A stretch of 64,000 nucleotides of DNA, taken from contig POWB01000007.1 of NCBI GenBank assembly GCA_010912705.1, positions 32,548 to 96,547 on the forward strand. The letters are read 5' to 3'. The notes below the pieces were generated by a model. That model saw only the letters and a program-made list of their open reading frames with translations, ran no database searches and had not been told where the DNA came from. Positions within the stretch are counted from its first letter, which is position 1; each line of letters opens with the position of its first letter. Below, piece by piece: positions 3,376 through 52,567 of the stretch. The stretch comes from Halochromatium sp. Its GTDB lineage: Bacteria; Pseudomonadota; Gammaproteobacteria; Chromatiales; Chromatiaceae. Position numbers and translations under genes: made by a program.

Positions 3376-4356
<981 letters not shown>

Positions 4357-44904: not shown

Positions 44905-45870
44905 TTAGCGCGGACTTGCTACCGGACGCGGTGGCATCGGCGAGAACTGCGGACCCCAGGTCGGTAGGGGCCGACTTGGCATGAATTTACGCGGCTCGAC
45001 TGGAGGCGTAAAGGTGCCAGGGATTTGCGGCGGAGGTGTCTGTGCGACTGGGAGCGGACGCTCCTCAGCTGGGGCAGTTGCCTCTGCGCTAGCAGCGGTC
45101 TCAGTGCTTGCCATCGCGGCCTCTTCGGTCTCAGCGATGACAGCTGAAGACTCAGCAGCGGGCTGCTCTGCCGCCGTGGTTGCAGCTTCAGCATCGCTGG
45201 CTGCAGCTGCAGCTGCAGGTGCTGCTTCTGATGCTGCAATTGCCTCAGATGCTGCATCCTCAACGGCTGGCTCAGCGGCCTCGGCTTCCGGCTCAACCGC
45301 CGCAGCCTCGCTCTCACTCGGCGCTGTGGTCACGGCTTCTGCTTCAGGTGCGGCTGTCGGGGCTTCTGCGATGGCCTCAGCCGTTGGGGCTTCCGCCTCC
45401 GCTTCAGACGCAGCTACCGGGGCTTCTGCGATGGTCTCGGCTGCTGGGGCCTCCGCCTTCTCTGCCTCAGGTGCTGCTGCCGAGGCCTCTGCTACGGTCT
45501 CGGCTGCTGGGGCCTCCGTCTCCTCTGCTTCAGAGGCTGCTGCCGCTGGCTCTGCATCGCTCGCTTCTGCAGTAGCTGCTTCGGCTGCTGGCGCCGCGGC
45601 TTCCTCGGCCGGTGCTGGGGTCTCAGCCACAGCAGTCGGGGCTGGCTCTGGCGGCGGTTCTGGCGTCTTGACGGCTACCCGGCCAACTGGCGCGAGGTTA
45701 GCAGCAACCGTCGAGGGCGCTATCTGGATGTCGTCTTCACCACCCGCTAACAAGACGTAGCCGATGCCAAGCACCAAGAGTGCGCCAACGACTTTGACCG
45801 ACAACATGCCGATATCATTCATATTTAGGGCCTTCAGTAATGAACCGAGACCAGACGTATTATCACTCAC
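44905..45870 (-). CDS. Single-helix anchored Ala/Glu/Pro-rich repeat protein
   Basis: The N-terminus (about 25 residues) precedes one membrane helix, VKVVGALLVLGIGYVLLAGG. After it come about 220 residues of imperfect repeats built on EAPAAETIAEA and AASEAEAEAP units. The C-terminal 45 residues are Pro-rich (PPPQIPGTFTPPVEPRKFMP). The protein probably has its repeat domain outside the cytoplasm, as a spacer or TonB-like arm, but no C-terminal domain is recognisable. A clear terminator follows. The GC-rich repeat gives a long frame on the other strand, which is an artefact. Confidence 0.7.
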   Translation of the reverse strand: MSDNTSGLGSLLKALNMNDIGMLSVKVVGALLVLGIGYVLLAGGEDDIQIAPSTVAANLAPVGRVAVKTPEPPPEPAPTAVAETPAPAEEAAAPAAEAATAEASDAEPAAAASEAEETEAPAAETVAEASAAAPEAEKAEAPAAETIAEAPVAASEAEAEAPTAEAIAEAPTAAPEAEAVTTAPSESEAAAVEPEAEAAEPAVEDAASEAIAASEAAPAAAAAASDAEAATTAAEQPAAESSAVIAETEEAAMASTETAASAEATAPAEERPLPVAQTPPPQIPGTFTPPVEPRKFMPSRPLPTWGPQFSPMPPRPVASPR

Positions 45871-46020
45871 TGAGATCTTCCTCTTCGCGCAAATTCGAGC
45901 CGCACATGGGGCCGGTCATAGGGCAGGTCAAAACCCTGTGAAGACTGCCTGAAACCGCGTCGGTGTTCAAGGTGCAACCACATGGACAGCGAGAAAATTG
46001 GACCTAGGGCCCGTCAACAC

Positions 46021-49000
46021 CTAGGCCGCAGCCGCCGTCTTAGCTGGTGGCTGGCTCGGCGCGGATACTGCTGGGTGCCGCGTCAAGGTTCGTTGATAGA
46101 TCACCTCGACTGCAGTAGCACCTAGCAACTGCCGCAATCGTTTTAATAGGGCGTCACTTGGTTCAACCCGCCAGCTCGTGCCCAGCCGCAGAGTGACTGC
46201 GGCCTCAGGACGACGATATTCGAGCAGCATTGGCAATCCAGTCTCGAGCCGATTGGCCTCGAGTGCTGTTGCCAATGCCTGCAGCCTCTCGGTGCCATTT
46301 GCATACTCGGCCGGATCACTGAGATCGAGCCGCAGCCTTAGATGATCGGCAAGCTTAGCACGTGCCTCAGCCAGCGTGCGCACCTCAGTCGCGGTGATCG
46401 TCCAGCCATTGGTGAAATTGTCCGGGCGCAGGCTGCCGGTCACCGCGATGATCGCATCCGGCACCAGCAGATGCCGCACCTGCTCGAACAGCTCCGGGAA
46501 GATGGTCGCCTCGATGCGGCCCGTGCGATCATCCAGGGTTACCGTAGCCATGCGCCCGCGCGCGGTCTTGTTGGCACGGATTGCCATGATCAGTCCAACC
46601 AGGGTGCGCTGCTCGCGATCCTGACCGCGTGGCCCGGCCGCGCCGAGCCCCTGCGCCATTTCCAACAGCCGACCGATGCGCTGCGAGACCATCGCATTGA
46701 GCTCGGCCTCATAGCGGTTGATCGGATGCCCGGTCAGATAGAGCCCAAGTGTCTCCTTCTCGCCCAGCAAGCGCTCATCCTCGTCCCAATCTGGCCAGGT
46801 TTGGGCGGCAATCTGCGGGTCTGGCGCCACCGCCGCGGCCTCGCTCGGCGTGGCATCCAACGCGCTAAACAGATCGCCCTGCCCGGCCGCCTCCTGCGCA
46901 TGATGTTGCTCGGCTAGCTTGAGGGCCAACGGCAGCCGGTTCATCAAGGTCGCGCGATTCTCGCCAAGTCCATCCAGGGCGCCGGCGCGGATCAGGGCCT
47001 CGAGCACGCGCTTATTGGCCTTCTGCAGATCGATGCGGCGACAAAATTCCCAAAGTTCCTTGAATGCCTGCTCGCGCTGGCGCGCCTCCAGCATCGACGC
47101 GATCGCCGACTCACCAACTCCCTTGATCGCACCGAGCCCATAGACCACCGACTGGTCGCCATCGATGGTAAACATCCGCTCGGAGCGATTGATACGGGGT
47201 GGCTCCACCTTCAGCCCCATGCTGCGACATTCATCGATCAGCGTCACCACCTTGTCGGTGTTGTCCATATCCGCCGAGAGCACCGCGGCCATGAACGCAG
47301 CCGGATAATGCGCCTTCAGCCAGAGCGTCTGATAGGAGACCAAGGCATAGGCGGCGGAGTGCGAATTGTGAACGATGATGTCATTGGCAACGAAGTTATG
47401 GCTTTCAGCAACCTCTAAATCATAGGTCATCGCCACGCCATCGGGCTCAATCGCCCGAATGGTTTCCCAATAAATATCACCGTCAACGATTTGCCTGAGT
47501 TCGTGTGAAGAAAAAAACTCCGCGAGTTGGCGAATCGTTTCACGCCGAAAACCTTTCTTGTGCGGATGATCTGGGGCATAGAATTCTTTGACGCAGACGC
47601 CACTCTGCGCTTCGATCTGCCTCCAGGTCAGTCCACTGCGCTCTTTTTCGCGATTGACCAGCTGCTTGACCTCGGCCGGTAAGGTGTCGATCGTTTCGCG
47701 ATCACGAGGCGTTGTCTCCAAGTAGGCGACCAAGGCGGCAAATTGGATATCCCGACCGATGAGATGGGGTCCAATGAGCGCAACGAAGTGTTCGATTGCC
47801 ACTCTTCCAACAAGATGCAGTGTATAACCGATACGACCGCCTTTATACAGAAAATGCTTTTTCGTCAAGCGACTGACAATGCCCAAGCGGAGCAATAGAT
47901 GCTGCGTCTCTTGTGTCAGTCGTAACGACGAACTAGCAAGATAAGGGGTCATGTTTTTTTGGTTGAGATCCGCGATGAAACCATCCCCTGACCACAACCG
48001 CCCCAGCAGGATCGCAAGATGATGACGCCTTAACCAGAACACCGAGGCTGGAAAATGTTTCTCGGTCGCTTTTTGCCCGATCATCCCCAGCTCTTCCAGC
48101 CACAACCTGGCACCAGAGCGCGGCGAGACGCTGTATCCAGTCCCCGTCTTGATACGGGTATCAGCGCCGGTTCCGACATAAACATCCCAGGTATTTGCAC
48201 GATCCTCACGCAATCGCAGGGTCGGCACGGTATTGGGAAAATGGCTCACCGCGGCGACGAAGTCATCGACCGCCTGCTGGTCTTTATTATAGAAATAGAA
48301 GCCGCTAGGATGGCAGGTATTGCCTTCCGACAAGACCCATCCAAGCGCCTTCAACTCATGTTCGGGCCATTCTTCTTGCCCCGCAATGGGGATTTTCGCG
48401 GGAGAAGCGATACGGTCGCCCGGCTTGAGATCAGCAATCATTTTCCAGCCGGCCAGCGTTAACAAAGGATGATTGCCAGTCGCGCGCAGGCTTTTACCCA
48501 ACGACGTGGTGAGACGAAACACGGGCTTGATCCCGTTCTCCATGATCTGATTGACGCAACTATGGCGCATACGATAATCATCATGGAGACTGGCAACCTT
48601 TGCTAAGCCCTCGCGATAGAGCGTTTTAACGGGGCGCAATTCGCCTGTTTGCGGATCAGCAACCAGCGTCTCACCCGCGACACATTTATTAAATCCGTAA
48701 CCAGCAAACTTCTCCATTAAATCAAAGATATAGGTCGCCACCTTCGGGTCGACCCCACGCTCGGTCGCGCCCTGCTCGAAGATGGCGCGCTGCTTCTCCA
48801 TCTCCTCGGCCTTCTTCTTGCCCATCGCCCGGCGCAGCAGGTCCGCACCGCCGAGCGAGTAGCCGGCGAGCACCTGGGCAATCTGCATCACCTGCTCTTG
48901 GTAGAGGATGACGCCATAGGTGGACTTGAGGATCGGCTCCAGATCCGGATGTGGATAGGCCACCTCGGCACGACCATGCTTGCGATCGATGAAGTCATCG

Positions 49001-50952
49001 ACCATGCCAGATTGCAGTGGACCGGGGCGAAACAGGGCCACCAGCGCGGTGATGTCCTCGAAGCTATCCGGCTGTAATTTGCGGATCAGCTCTTTCATCC
49101 CACGTGACTCGAGCTGGAACACCGCGGTGGTCTGGCAAGACTTGAGCAGCTTGAAGGCGTCGGCGTCGTGCGGGTCGATCAGATTGATATCGAGCGGTAC
49201 CTCGCCCTGGGCCTGGCGCTCGGCATTGATGGTCTTCAGTGCCCAATCAATGATCGTCAGGGTGCGCAGGCCAAGAAAGTCGAACTTGACCAGGCCGGCC
49301 TGCTCAACGTCATCCTTGTCGTACTGGGTTACCAGGTTGTCGCCGCCGGGCTCGCAATAGAGCGGCGCAAAATCGGTGAGCTTGGTCGGCGCAATCACCA
49401 CCCCGCCGGCATGTTTGCCGGCGTTGCGCGCGATGCCTTCGAGCTTACGCGCCATGTCGATGATGCCGGTGACGGCCTCATCGTCCTTGTAGGCCGCGGC
49501 CAGATCTGGGCTTTCCTCTAATGCCTTATCGAGCGTCATCTTCAGCTCAAAAGGCACCATCTTGGCGATCTTGTCGATGAAGCCATAGGGATGCCCCAGC
49601 ACGCGGCCGACATCCCGTACCACCGCCTTCGCCGCCATGGTGCCGAAGGTGATGATCTGTGAGACTGCCTCGCGCCCGTATTTGCCAGCGACATAGTCGA
49701 TGACCTCATCGCGGCGATCCATGCAAAAATCGACGTCGAAGTCCGGCATCGAGACGCGCTCTGGATTCAAGAAGCGCTCGAACAGGAGCTCGTGCTCAAT
49801 CGGGTCCAGATCGGTGATCTTCAGCGCATAAGCCACCAAGGAGCCGGCACCGGAGCCGCGTCCGGGACCAACAGGGATGCCGTTATCCTTGGCCCAACGG
49901 ATGAAGTCAGCGACGATTAGAAAGTACCCCGGAAAGCCCATCTGACAGATGACATCGAGTTCAAGCTGCAGGCGCTCGTCGTAGATGCGACGCTGCTCGG
50001 CAAACTCAGGGGCATCGCGATCGAAGGTCCGGTCGAGTCGCCATTCGAGCCCAGCGCGTGATTCGGCGGTTAGATGCTGATCGATGGTGAGGCCCGCGGG
50101 CACCGGCGAATCGGGCAAAAAGGTCTCGCCTAAGCGCAGATTCAGGTTGCAGCGTTTGGCGATCTCGATGCTGTTCTCGAGCGCCTCGGGGATGTCCGCA
50201 AATAGCTCGGCCATCTCCTCGGGGGTGCGCAGATACTGCTGCGGGCTATGCCGATGCGGGCGGCGCGGATCATCGAGGGTATGACCACTGTTGATGCAGA
50301 CCCGCACCTCATGGGCATCAAAATCCTCAGCGGCGAGGAAGGCGACATCGTTAGTCGCCACCACTGGCACATTCTTCGCTAGCGCAAGCTCCAAGCTCAG
50401 CTCGACGCAACGCTCTTCGTCCTCGCGGCCGGTGCGGATCAGTTCCAGATAGTAGCGGTCGCCGAAGGCGGTTAGCCAGTCGTCGAGCAGCCGTTCAGCC
50501 TCGTCCTGATAACCGCTGAGCAAGGCGCGCTGCACGTCACCACCGGTACCACCGGACAGCGCGATCAGCCCATCCGCGGCCTCCAGCACCCAGGAGCGCT
50601 CGACCTGCGCAATGCCGCCCTGCTGCCCCTGGGTGTAGGCGCGCGAGATCAGCGCTGTCAGGGCCGTATAGCCCGACTCCTCATGCACCAGCAGCACCAG
50701 CCGATGCGGCTTGCTCGGATCAGCCGGATTGCGTACCGCCAGCTCAGTGCCAACGATCGGCTTGATGCCGGCCGCGAGCGCTGCCTTGTAGAAACGCACC
50801 AAACAGAACAGGTTGCAATGGTCGGTGACCGCCACCGCAGGCATCCCTGCTGCCACTAGGGTCTTTGCCAACGGCTTGATGCGCACCAGGCCATCGATCA
50901 GCGAGTATTCCGAGTGCAGGTGTAGATGGACGAAAGCAGGCTCCGACGACAA
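46021..50952 (-). CDS. dnaE: DNA polymerase III alpha subunit, intein-containing precursor
   Basis: DnaE is the replicative polymerase. The PHP domain (FVHLHLHSEYSLIDGLVRIK) and the catalytic PDFDVDFCMDRR block, GRGSGAGSLVAYAL and the OB-fold near the C-terminus are all present. The precursor is 1643 residues. A 440-residue intein (residues 757-1196) splits the conserved KFAGYGFNK/SHSAAYA sequence, so the spliced protein would be 1203 residues, close to normal. Splicing is required for function because the site lies in the essential polymerase core. The first extein residue after the intein is Ser1197, a valid splicing nucleophile. The gene stands apart from other replication genes here. Confidence 0.97.
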   Translation of the reverse strand: MSSEPAFVHLHLHSEYSLIDGLVRIKPLAKTLVAAGMPAVAVTDHCNLFCLVRFYKAALAAGIKPIVGTELAVRNPADPSKPHRLVLLVHEESGYTALTALISRAYTQGQQGGIAQVERSWVLEAADGLIALSGGTGGDVQRALLSGYQDEAERLLDDWLTAFGDRYYLELIRTGREDEERCVELSLELALAKNVPVVATNDVAFLAAEDFDAHEVRVCINSGHTLDDPRRPHRHSPQQYLRTPEEMAELFADIPEALENSIEIAKRCNLNLRLGETFLPDSPVPAGLTIDQHLTAESRAGLEWRLDRTFDRDAPEFAEQRRIYDERLQLELDVICQMGFPGYFLIVADFIRWAKDNGIPVGPGRGSGAGSLVAYALKITDLDPIEHELLFERFLNPERVSMPDFDVDFCMDRRDEVIDYVAGKYGREAVSQIITFGTMAAKAVVRDVGRVLGHPYGFIDKIAKMVPFELKMTLDKALEESPDLAAAYKDDEAVTGIIDMARKLEGIARNAGKHAGGVVIAPTKLTDFAPLYCEPGGDNLVTQYDKDDVEQAGLVKFDFLGLRTLTIIDWALKTINAERQAQGEVPLDINLIDPHDADAFKLLKSCQTTAVFQLESRGMKELIRKLQPDSFEDITALVALFRPGPLQSGMVDDFIDRKHGRAEVAYPHPDLEPILKSTYGVILYQEQVMQIAQVLAGYSLGGADLLRRAMGKKKAEEMEKQRAIFEQGATERGVDPKVATYIFDLMEKFAGYGFNKCVAGETLVADPQTGELRPVKTLYREGLAKVASLHDDYRMRHSCVNQIMENGIKPVFRLTTSLGKSLRATGNHPLLTLAGWKMIADLKPGDRIASPAKIPIAGQEEWPEHELKALGWVLSEGNTCHPSGFYFYNKDQQAVDDFVAAVSHFPNTVPTLRLREDRANTWDVYVGTGADTRIKTGTGYSVSPRSGARLWLEELGMIGQKATEKHFPASVFWLRRHHLAILLGRLWSGDGFIADLNQKNMTPYLASSSLRLTQETQHLLLRLGIVSRLTKKHFLYKGGRIGYTLHLVGRVAIEHFVALIGPHLIGRDIQFAALVAYLETTPRDRETIDTLPAEVKQLVNREKERSGLTWRQIEAQSGVCVKEFYAPDHPHKKGFRRETIRQLAEFFSSHELRQIVDGDIYWETIRAIEPDGVAMTYDLEVAESHNFVANDIIVHNSHSAAYALVSYQTLWLKAHYPAAFMAAVLSADMDNTDKVVTLIDECRSMGLKVEPPRINRSERMFTIDGDQSVVYGLGAIKGVGESAIASMLEARQREQAFKELWEFCRRIDLQKANKRVLEALIRAGALDGLGENRATLMNRLPLALKLAEQHHAQEAAGQGDLFSALDATPSEAAAVAPDPQIAAQTWPDWDEDERLLGEKETLGLYLTGHPINRYEAELNAMVSQRIGRLLEMAQGLGAAGPRGQDREQRTLVGLIMAIRANKTARGRMATVTLDDRTGRIEATIFPELFEQVRHLLVPDAIIAVTGSLRPDNFTNGWTITATEVRTLAEARAKLADHLRLRLDLSDPAEYANGTERLQALATALEANRLETGLPMLLEYRRPEAAVTLRLGTSWRVEPSDALLKRLRQLLGATAVEVIYQRTLTRHPAVSAPSQPPAKTAAAA
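47365..48684 (-). mobile_element. DnaE intein with LAGLIDADG-like homing endonuclease
   Basis: Splicing blocks are readable. Block A starts at Cys757 (CVAGETLVADPQTGELRPVK). Block B is RATGNHPLLTLAGWKMIADL. Block F is MTYDLEVAESHNFVANDIIV. Block G ends in His-Asn before Ser1197. Two dodecapeptide-like motifs, LKALGWVLSEGNT and LLGRLWSGDGFI, retain their acidic residues, so a DOD endonuclease may be active. The unit is contiguous, not split. Its site is four residues downstream of the classical cyanobacterial split-DnaE site. Base composition is lower in GC: 24 of 60 in 47821-47880 against 40 of 60 in 48781-48840. Confidence 0.93.
48685..48726 (-). other. AT-rich extein flank, candidate co-conversion tract
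   Basis: The 14 codons just before the intein use TTA for Leu, TTT for all three Phe, GCT, GGT, GGA, AAT and AAA, although the encoded protein is highly conserved. The extein codons after the intein (TCG, CAC, TCC, GCC, GCC) are typical of this genome. The one-sided change suggests donor DNA copied along with the intein. Confidence 0.65.
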
Positions 50953-51076
50953 GGCGCACTCCGGGGTCAGCGGGACAGAAGGACGACCTAGTCTAGCGAC
51001 TCCCGATGATGCTGTCGCTGACCCAGCCTAGCCAATGACGGCACCCGGCTCGGCCAATGACGGCAAATAGGGGGCG

Positions 51077-52567
51077 CTATCGCTGCATGCGCTGGATGAT
51101 GCCCGTCGTGCTGCGCGCTTCGAGCAGCGGCACCAGCACCAGCTCGCCACCCCAGCTGCGAACCTGCTCGGCACCAACGACCTGGTCGGGACGATAGTCA
51201 GCGCCCTTGGCGAGTACATCGGGCCGTAGCGCCTCGATCAGCTCGAGAGGGGTATCCTCGTCAAATAGCACCACCGCATCGACAGCAGCCAGGGCGGCTA
51301 GGACCCGCGCGCGGTCTTGCTCGCCGATCAAGGGGCGCTCCGGCCCCTTGAGCGCGCGCACCGAGCGATCGCTATTCAGACCAATGATCAACCGCTGGCC
51401 ATGGCGGCGGGCGCGCTCCAGATAGCTGACATGACCGGCGTGCAGCAGGTCAAAGCAGCCGTTGGTGAAGACCACCCGCTCGCCGCGTGCTTGCCAGGCG
51501 CGCACCCGTGTTTGCAGCTCAGGGAGCTGGCAGCGCTTGGCGGCTTGCTCTAGGGCGGCCTCGTCACTGATGGCATGCTCGAGCTCGCTGAGACTGATGG
51601 CGGCAGTGCCCAGCTTGGCCACGACCACACCAGCGGCAAGATTGGCGAGATGGGCGCTATCGATCGGGTCGAGTCCAGCGGCGAGACCGGCGGCGAGTGT
51701 GGCGATGACCGTGTCGCCCGCCCCCGAGACATCGAACACCTCGCGCGCGACCGCGGGGATGCGCGTTTGCCGATCCTGCTCAATGACCAGCAGACCAAGC
51801 TCACCGAGGGTCAGGATCAGACGCTCGAGTCTGAGGTCGGTGCGCATGCGGCTGGCAACTTGGGTGAGATGCTCGAGATCGCTCGGGTCGAGGCTGGCTG
51901 CCTGCGCAAGCTCGGAGCGATTTGGGGTGATGAGGCTGGCACCCAGATAGCGGTTAAAGTCGCGGCCCTTTGGATCGACCAACACCGGGATGCCCTGTTC
52001 ACGGGCGACACCGATGAGACGCTGGCACAGACCGCCAAAGAGCACACCCTTGGCATAGTCCGAGAGCAGCAGCACGGCGCTAGCGCGCAGCTGGGGCAGA
52101 ATCAACGCGAACAGCCGATCTTCCAGCTCGGCGCTGAGCGGGGCGACACGCTCGGCGTCGATGCGCAGCATCTGCTGATGGTTGCCAAGCAAACGGGTCT
52201 TGGTGGTGGTGGGTCGGGCTGAGTCGGCAAGCAGGGCGCTGATCTCGATGCCCTGCTCGGTCAGCAGCTGCAGCAGGCGCTGGCGATTGTCATCCTCACC
52301 GGTGACGCCGGCAATACTCACTGCGAGTCCGAGCCCGATCAGGTTGCGCGCGACGTTGGCAGCGCCGCCGGCGGTCTCGGTCTCATGGCTGAGATGGAGC
52401 ACCGGCACTGGCGCCTCTGGTGAGATGCGTCCGACCTGACCCCAAAGATAGCGGTCGAGCATCAGATCACCGACCACCAGCACGCGAGCAGCACCGAAGC
52501 GGTTCCGCACCGCGGCAAGGACCTGCGCCGACCTCAGCTCCGCGACCGAAGATGCGTGCTGGAACAT
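51077..52567 (-). CDS. hldE: Bifunctional heptose 7-phosphate kinase / heptose 1-phosphate adenylyltransferase
   Basis: HldE carries out two steps toward ADP-L-glycero-D-manno-heptose for the LPS core. Residues 1 to about 330 form a PfkB-type kinase (GGAANVARNLIGLGL, DPKGRDFNRYLGASLITPN, and FDVSGAGDTVIATLAAGLAA with the catalytic Asp). The C-terminal 150 residues are a nucleotidyltransferase with FTNGCFDLLHAGHVSYLERA. The ATG at 52567 lies four bases after the gmhA stop, so both are in one operon. A longer open frame to 52723 would overlap gmhA and is rejected. Confidence 0.95.
   Translation of the reverse strand: MFQHASSVAELRSAQVLAAVRNRFGAARVLVVGDLMLDRYLWGQVGRISPEAPVPVLHLSHETETAGGAANVARNLIGLGLAVSIAGVTGEDDNRQRLLQLLTEQGIEISALLADSARPTTTKTRLLGNHQQMLRIDAERVAPLSAELEDRLFALILPQLRASAVLLLSDYAKGVLFGGLCQRLIGVAREQGIPVLVDPKGRDFNRYLGASLITPNRSELAQAASLDPSDLEHLTQVASRMRTDLRLERLILTLGELGLLVIEQDRQTRIPAVAREVFDVSGAGDTVIATLAAGLAAGLDPIDSAHLANLAAGVVVAKLGTAAISLSELEHAISDEAALEQAAKRCQLPELQTRVRAWQARGERVVFTNGCFDLLHAGHVSYLERARRHGQRLIIGLNSDRSVRALKGPERPLIGEQDRARVLAALAAVDAVVLFDEDTPLELIEALRPDVLAKGADYRPDQVVGAEQVRSWGGELVLVPLLEARSTTGIIQRMQR

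Follow-up and report, generated by a model that had tools for sequence, protein, structure and literature searches.

A contiguous DnaE intein with a predicted LAGLIDADG endonuclease at the GFNK/SHS bond in Halochromatium sp.

The window analysed in the present study, a stretch of 64,000 nucleotides from Halochromatium sp., carries a dnaE gene on its minus strand (46021-50952), the frame of which is unbroken across 1643 codons and the product of which contains the Pfam domains PHP, DNA_pol3_alpha, DNA_pol3_finger and HHH_6 (Table 1). A single in-frame insertion, which reads CVAGETLV...NDIIVHN, lies between Lys756 and Ser1197, and the two flanks together (756+447) give a predicted spliced DnaE of 1203 residues. 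An earlier note, made from the sequence alone, had placed an intein of 440 codons at 47365..48684, with Cys1, a TGNH block B, a His-Asn end and Ser+1, and had expected a spliced protein of about 1203 residues; reading of the frame reproduced these coordinates and this length exactly, and every one of the motifs is present at its place. When we searched the C-extein against the 4.19 Mb assembly, a draft of 43 contigs that is 89.76% complete, a single match was returned (E up to 1e-60), so that one dnaE was found. An Rfam search of positions 45800-51100 gave no match. The neighbour of dnaE is a 321-codon frame (window 44905-45870, minus strand) rich in alanine, glutamate and proline repeats.

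Table 1. Coordinates of dnaE and its intein in the window, and of the Thr1/Ser1 inserts found elsewhere
Feature	Position	Strand	Basis
dnaE, DNA polymerase III alpha subunit, intein-bearing precursor, 1643 aa	46021..50952	-	ORF reading and Pfam domains
N-extein, 756 codons, C-terminal KFAGYGFNK	48685..50952	-	Frame reading
Intein, 440 codons, Hint splicing domain and nested LAGLIDADG endonuclease (predicted)	47365..48684	-	Pfam, NCBIfam, model, Foldseek
C-extein, 447 codons and stop, N-terminal SHSAAYA	46021..47364	-	Frame reading
Cys1, predicted first nucleophile; C in 117/117 aligned inteins, window's included	48682..48684	-	Alignment
Block B, T69-G-N-H72; T69 and H72 in 117/117, window's included	48469..48480	-	Alignment
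First LAGLIDADG motif, LGWVLSEG; acid E120, E in 115/117	48322..48345	-	Alignment
Second LAGLIDADG motif, terminal SGDG; acid D234, D in 113/117	47980..48009	-	Alignment; LAGLIDADG_3 at 226-305
Helical module, residues 333-395, likely DNA-binding (HTH-like)	47500..47688	-	Model helices, weak PHROG match
Blocks F and G, residues 418-440; D422, H429, N430, H439, N440 each 117/117	47365..47433	-	Alignment
Ser+1 codon TCG	47362..47364	-	Codon comparison with six congeners (AGY)
Thr1/Ser1 inserts	L097:1360-2469 (nuclease frame 1529-2419); L120:3358-4008 (nuclease frame 3527-3958); L051:2776-3213; L062		

The insert matched Pfam Intein_splicing (PF14890) over residues 21-440 (E 2.8e-22) and LAGLIDADG_3 (PF14528) over residues 226-305 only (E 1.9e-12), the first LAGLIDADG motif being taken from the alignment, and thus the similarity to both Hint and LAGLIDADG models that had been set beforehand as a test was found. 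The NCBIfam models intein_Nterm (8.6e-8) and intein_Cterm (2.5e-6) each scored above their own cut-off, and the best NCBIfam match over residues 1-440 was PRK07773, which covers DnaB inteins (1.2e-75, under the cut-off of that model). The top match in a search of PDB sequences was the Npu DnaB mini-intein (4o1r, 7.5e-22). In addition, an AlphaFold2 model built from a 40-sequence alignment (pLDDT 93.9, pTM 0.92) has strands at both termini that fit a Hint domain and a central alpha-beta region that fits a nuclease; its top Foldseek matches were the intein-endonucleases TliVMA (7qss, 9.3e-22) and PI-PfuI (1dq3, 6.4e-19). A weak PHROG match to a helix-turn-helix was also seen at residues 329-364 (E 0.0038).

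Class 1 inteins have a nucleophile at position 1, a TxxH block B, a C-terminal His-Asn and Ser, Thr or Cys at +1, and class 3 inteins are without a nucleophile at position 1; these definitions, the block names and the class 1 splicing steps given below are general intein knowledge. The window's intein has the Hint domain, C1, T69-G-N-H72, H439-N440 and Ser+1 of class 1, it is separated from class 3 by Cys1 and from split inteins by its single open frame, and it has two LAGLIDADG motifs with one acid each (E120 and D234). Pfam, NCBIfam, the model and Foldseek bear out the earlier proposal of an intein in dnaE at GFNK/SHS and confirm, on sequence and model, an intein with a nested LAGLIDADG endonuclease as the predicted identity of the insert.

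Contiguous DnaE inteins at GFNK/SHS in bacteria such as Allochromatium, Imhoffiella, Thiocapsa and Deinococcus share the bond, Cys1, the His-Asn end and LAGLIDADG with the window's intein, which is nevertheless diverged from them (at most 71% identity among the matches listed). The closest solved splicing domains belong to DnaB inteins (Npu, Ssp; PRK07773) but come from another host protein, and TliVMA and PI-PfuI have the same overall Hint plus LAGLIDADG fold with 16-17% identity to the window's intein, but lie in host proteins other than DnaE. The cyanobacterial split DnaE inteins lie in the same gene, at a site that we take to be four residues upstream of the window's bond, and are not known to carry an endonuclease, whereas the window's intein is contiguous. 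In the available parts of the respective sources, the cyanobacterial DnaE intein is described as divided between two genes (PMC7765530), and inteins are described in DnaE of two further sulphur-cycle bacteria, Desulfonema ishimotonii, where the intein measures 415 aa and is put forward as a mobile element acquired from distant organisms (PMC6390638), and Thiomargarita nelsonii, where it is reported without an endonuclease domain, unlike the window's (PMC4853749), the bond of insertion being named for neither.

A search of 5.8 billion proteins, in which scoring was confined to the 7994 candidates with the most words in common and candidates were limited to roughly DnaE length, gave 1348 matches, the best 120 of which were listed. 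We aligned the window with 116 DnaE proteins from this list, leaving out P0002 (a duplicate of the window), P0075 and P0098 (both DnaB) and P0003, a record which begins within another intein and in which the GFNK/SHS bond is also occupied. All 117 aligned proteins (from the best 120 of 1348 matches) have a homologous intein at FN[KR]/C...HN/SH, exactly the window's bond, and C1, T69, H72, D422, H429, N430, H439 and N440 are invariant in them. As named hosts among the matches listed include Allochromatium, Imhoffiella, Thiocapsa, Deinococcus, Ardenticatenales, Chloroflexi, Planctomycetes, Bacteroidota and Actinomycetota, the GFNK/SHS allele is, judged from these sequences, already widespread in several bacterial phyla, with the window's intein a further example and not an unprecedented one. 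The closest intein among the matches listed, that of P0004, is 71% identical with the window's. Compared with the Deinococcus-type rows printed (FANYGFNK), the window has an intein identity of 54-57% and an extein identity of 47-53%, and compared with the gammaproteobacterial P0073 these values are 57 and 72% respectively, which indicates that, at depth, divergence of the intein is not a mere reflection of that of its host protein. Intein trees group the window's intein with those of other purple sulphur bacteria.

We then turn to the host's relatives, among which a full-length intein match at 67-70% was found in seven other genomes, making eight of the 146 searched with the window included; DnaE itself was found in 136. 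The earlier view that full-length inteins are uncommon therefore stands for the host's family, but not for the allele itself, which spans phyla, and gammaproteobacterial dnaE inteins have already been published for Thiomargarita and Beggiatoa BOGUAY (PMC4853749, available part of the text). Junctions were read in 60 of the 136 genomes with DnaE (all those occupied and the closest relatives) and in two further congeners, and these 62 comprise eight with the window-type intein (window included), three with a different insert and 51 that are empty; being enriched for occupied sites, they are a poorer guide to the occupancy rate than the genome count. The proposed comparison with intein-free relatives thus shows the segment to be absent from 51 of 62 junctions and not a general feature of DnaE. 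The bond is empty in seven out of seven congeners, and the C-extein tree nests the window with six of these (support 100) and leaves G015 outside the group. On this tree at least seven changes of occupancy are needed among genomes, and 11 or 10 when protein records are added. The inteins of G124, G140, P0004, G033 and G057 form one clade (support 99/99), within which intein identity is 85-91% (pairs without P0004) and C-extein identity between its three host groups is 75-81%. Extein data reject this clade, which was picked from the intein tree (p-AU 0.00015), indicating that the allele moves sideways within the host's family.

A hint as to how the window's lineage came by its intein lies in the serine codon at +1. 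Across 19 serine columns shared with six congeners, the window stands alone in codon class only at this position (TCG against AGT or AGC). It is the sole serine class switch among the 33 serines shared with each of G119 and G098, and is always among the 3, 2, 2 and 2 switches seen against G066, G137, G147 and G015 respectively; the seventh congener, G146, has AGT. Since a switch between TCN and AGY needs two base changes, this codon is more simply explained by a short flank that arrived together with the intein, but it is one site, noticed before being counted. The empty outgroup G038 has TCC at +1, and the use of serine-codon class to mark occupancy more widely was rejected, as 35 of the 51 empty sites are also TCN, although the contrast within the genus remains. 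No long co-conversion tract was seen, and the window's N-side codons resemble those of the empty congener G098. The GC3 of the intein lies below that of the C-extein in all eight occupied genomes (the window's being 58 against 73-76), and its low value in the window does not, therefore, mark a recent arrival. Searches for a vector confirmed no close copy in viral contigs; they returned 18 phage records and 175 plasmid records, all below 60% identity (best rows 27.0 and 28.9% respectively), and a scan of genome contigs, for which the patterns were derived from the window alone, yielded a single locus (32%).

On balance, it seems moderately likely that the window's lineage gained its intein from another purple sulphur bacterium after splitting from its congeners. 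As far as this gain step alone is concerned, the family's ancestor might instead already have carried the intein, which would then have been lost often, including from all seven congeners. The family inteins compared are all about equally similar to the window's (61-70% identity; 71% for P0004), which would fit such descent, and the intein data are compatible (p-AU 0.27) with a clade that joins the window to P0014 and P0015, the exteins of which are close to its own, which makes vertical descent possible; against this, several precise losses within one genus would be required, all seven empty congeners have an AGY serine at +1, and other members of the allele have clearly moved, so that we consider a long residence possible but less likely than gain.

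We consider it very probable, as an overall explanation, that the 440-codon intein splices from the sole dnaE precursor and encodes a homing LAGLIDADG endonuclease. By the class 1 route, an N-S shift at Cys1, transfer to Ser+1 and cyclization of Asn440 would excise the intein from the DnaE precursor and leave the 1203-residue polymerase. We infer splicing because the sole dnaE found would otherwise yield an interrupted polymerase and, on present evidence, the replicative polymerase of the cell would depend on removal of the insert. The endonuclease, the activity of which is predicted from conserved motifs and fold, likely cuts intein-free dnaE, and repair would then copy the element in.

Shortened members of the allele were also found: P0014 and P0015 are missing window residues 349-401 and 361-401, i.e. 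most of the helical module, and P0073 and P0117 are missing window residues 111-195 and 322-386, but all four retain their splice residues despite these nuclease-region deletions, as expected of nuclease decay after homing. By analogy with these four, the window's intein might have a working Hint part and a dead endonuclease, with homing over; it nevertheless retains the helical module as well as the two motifs with their acids, in a model that is mostly confident, making this state unlikely. A regulatory intein, the splicing of which is held back under some condition so as to gate replication, has published counterparts such as mycobacterial DnaB (PMC7360933 and PMC6195587, in the parts of these texts available), but no sign of a sensor was noticed in the window, seven out of seven congeners manage without an intein, and we judge such a role most improbable here. 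An unspliced insert, a pseudogene or an artefact of the draft assembly in 43 contigs is hardly credible in view of the open 1643-codon frame, the invariant splice residues, the finding of only this dnaE and the occupation of this bond in a further 116 DnaE proteins (among the best 120 of 1348 matches).

In G132, G026 and G115, the GFNK/SHS bond is filled by a different insert, which begins with Thr and ends in CCSN/SHS. This Thr1 insert displayed no significant similarity to the window's intein by BLASTP (best E 0.27), and Pfam gave no domain at cut-off in the two Thr1 inserts searched. A protein search with the insert brought up 66 proteins (including that of the query), all of which have a DnaE-type domain; the first residue is Thr in 51, Ser in four and Cys in one of the 56 inserts with both ends placed, the remaining records either starting inside the insert (four) or being without the C-side pattern (six). 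Matches were present in five of 210 genomes of the order and in one of 369 drawn from the class, with no match in plasmids. The model of the L120 insert has a mean pLDDT of 68, with values that are 79-91 in the first 90 residues, fall to approx. 30 in the middle and rise again to 52-90 at the C-terminus, and Foldseek returns inteins for it, although the low-confidence middle makes these scores rough. L120 is a 116-kb IMG/VR contig (IMGVR_UViG_3300033146_001917) encoding a DnaE-like protein that is interrupted by two intein-like inserts, of which one is of the Thr1 type, and this contig from a viral collection is a possible carrier of the Thr1 insert.

The middle of the L097 insert is covered by an intact frame of 296 codons, shifted +1, which gave weak PHROG matches to an HNH endonuclease (8.1e-4) and a homing endonuclease (0.0043). 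The frame had no Pfam domain at cut-off, nothing convincing among PDB sequences (best E 0.036), no match in 369 genomes of the class (a sample without known carriers) and no match in phages. L120 contains a shorter +1 frame (143 codons) that is similar to the one in L097 (7e-22). When the two loci are compared, +1 is the frame in which the spacer shows the highest conservation (63.9 bits, compared with 30.8 in frame 0 and 19.2 in +2), whereas frame 0 gives the highest conservation for the N-terminal Hint part (102 compared with 35.8 bits) and the sole match for the C-terminal part (62.8 bits). A loosened motif, D-F-x8-[IV]E[VI]DG-xx-H, is encodable in +1, on a protein basis, in all 34 inserts of at least 340 residues, in each case at 122-123 residues from the end; the controls were 0.34% of shuffles, none of 34 in the +2 frame, three of 26 short inserts and none of 117 Cys1 inteins, but these tests are not independent, as the motif was taken from L097 (almost surely P0150 in the set) and the 34 inserts are homologous. 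Full-size Thr1 inserts appear, from these comparisons, to carry a homing-type nuclease in an overlapping +1 frame.

GFNK/SHS is, in our opinion, probably a battleground of two Hint families that are dissimilar in sequence, one with Cys1 and an in-frame LAGLIDADG and the other with Thr1 or Ser1 and an overprinted +1 nuclease. The nearest precedent found is an out-of-frame HNH in a phage methylase insert, which the available part of the source describes without a detectable splicing domain (PMC11855218), and a full-text literature search for an out-of-frame nuclease in an intein gave only this paper and a phage genome announcement (PMC12613952), likewise available in part. If true, a nuclease out of frame inside a genuine intein would be a new intein architecture, in which one stretch of DNA would encode the spacer of a splicing protein plus its own mobility enzyme, and one that can escape domain annotation, as the Pfam results for two inserts and one nuclease frame illustrate. 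The window's intein is itself a well-preserved addition, in an essential gene found once, to a phylum-spanning allele, and the seven empty congeners offer a natural setting in which homing into a replicative polymerase might be caught. Since the alleles of this bond in close relatives may be empty, full, shortened or taken by a rival, both the homing cycle and the competition for the site become testable.

The four records that start inside the Thr1 insert (P0143, P0185 from Thiothrix litoralis, P0186 and P0187) may be either split dnaE genes or start-site calls, and the N-terminus of P0187 resembles the start of the L120 nuclease frame. A second DnaE intein site, LRR/CMGKKK (L042, L059 and L062), holds a full intein in the Allochromatium vinosum-like G124 and mini-inteins in G073 and G026, and both DnaE sites are filled in P0010. 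A split of Allochromatium vinosum dnaE at this second intein, considered because of the start of P0003, was rejected, the G124 frame being open over 2087 codons. The window's own genome carries a further intein (G000:C7:59113-60393; L043), beyond the limits of the window, in a DnaB-like replicative helicase, where it sits directly after the P-loop motif GRPSMGK.
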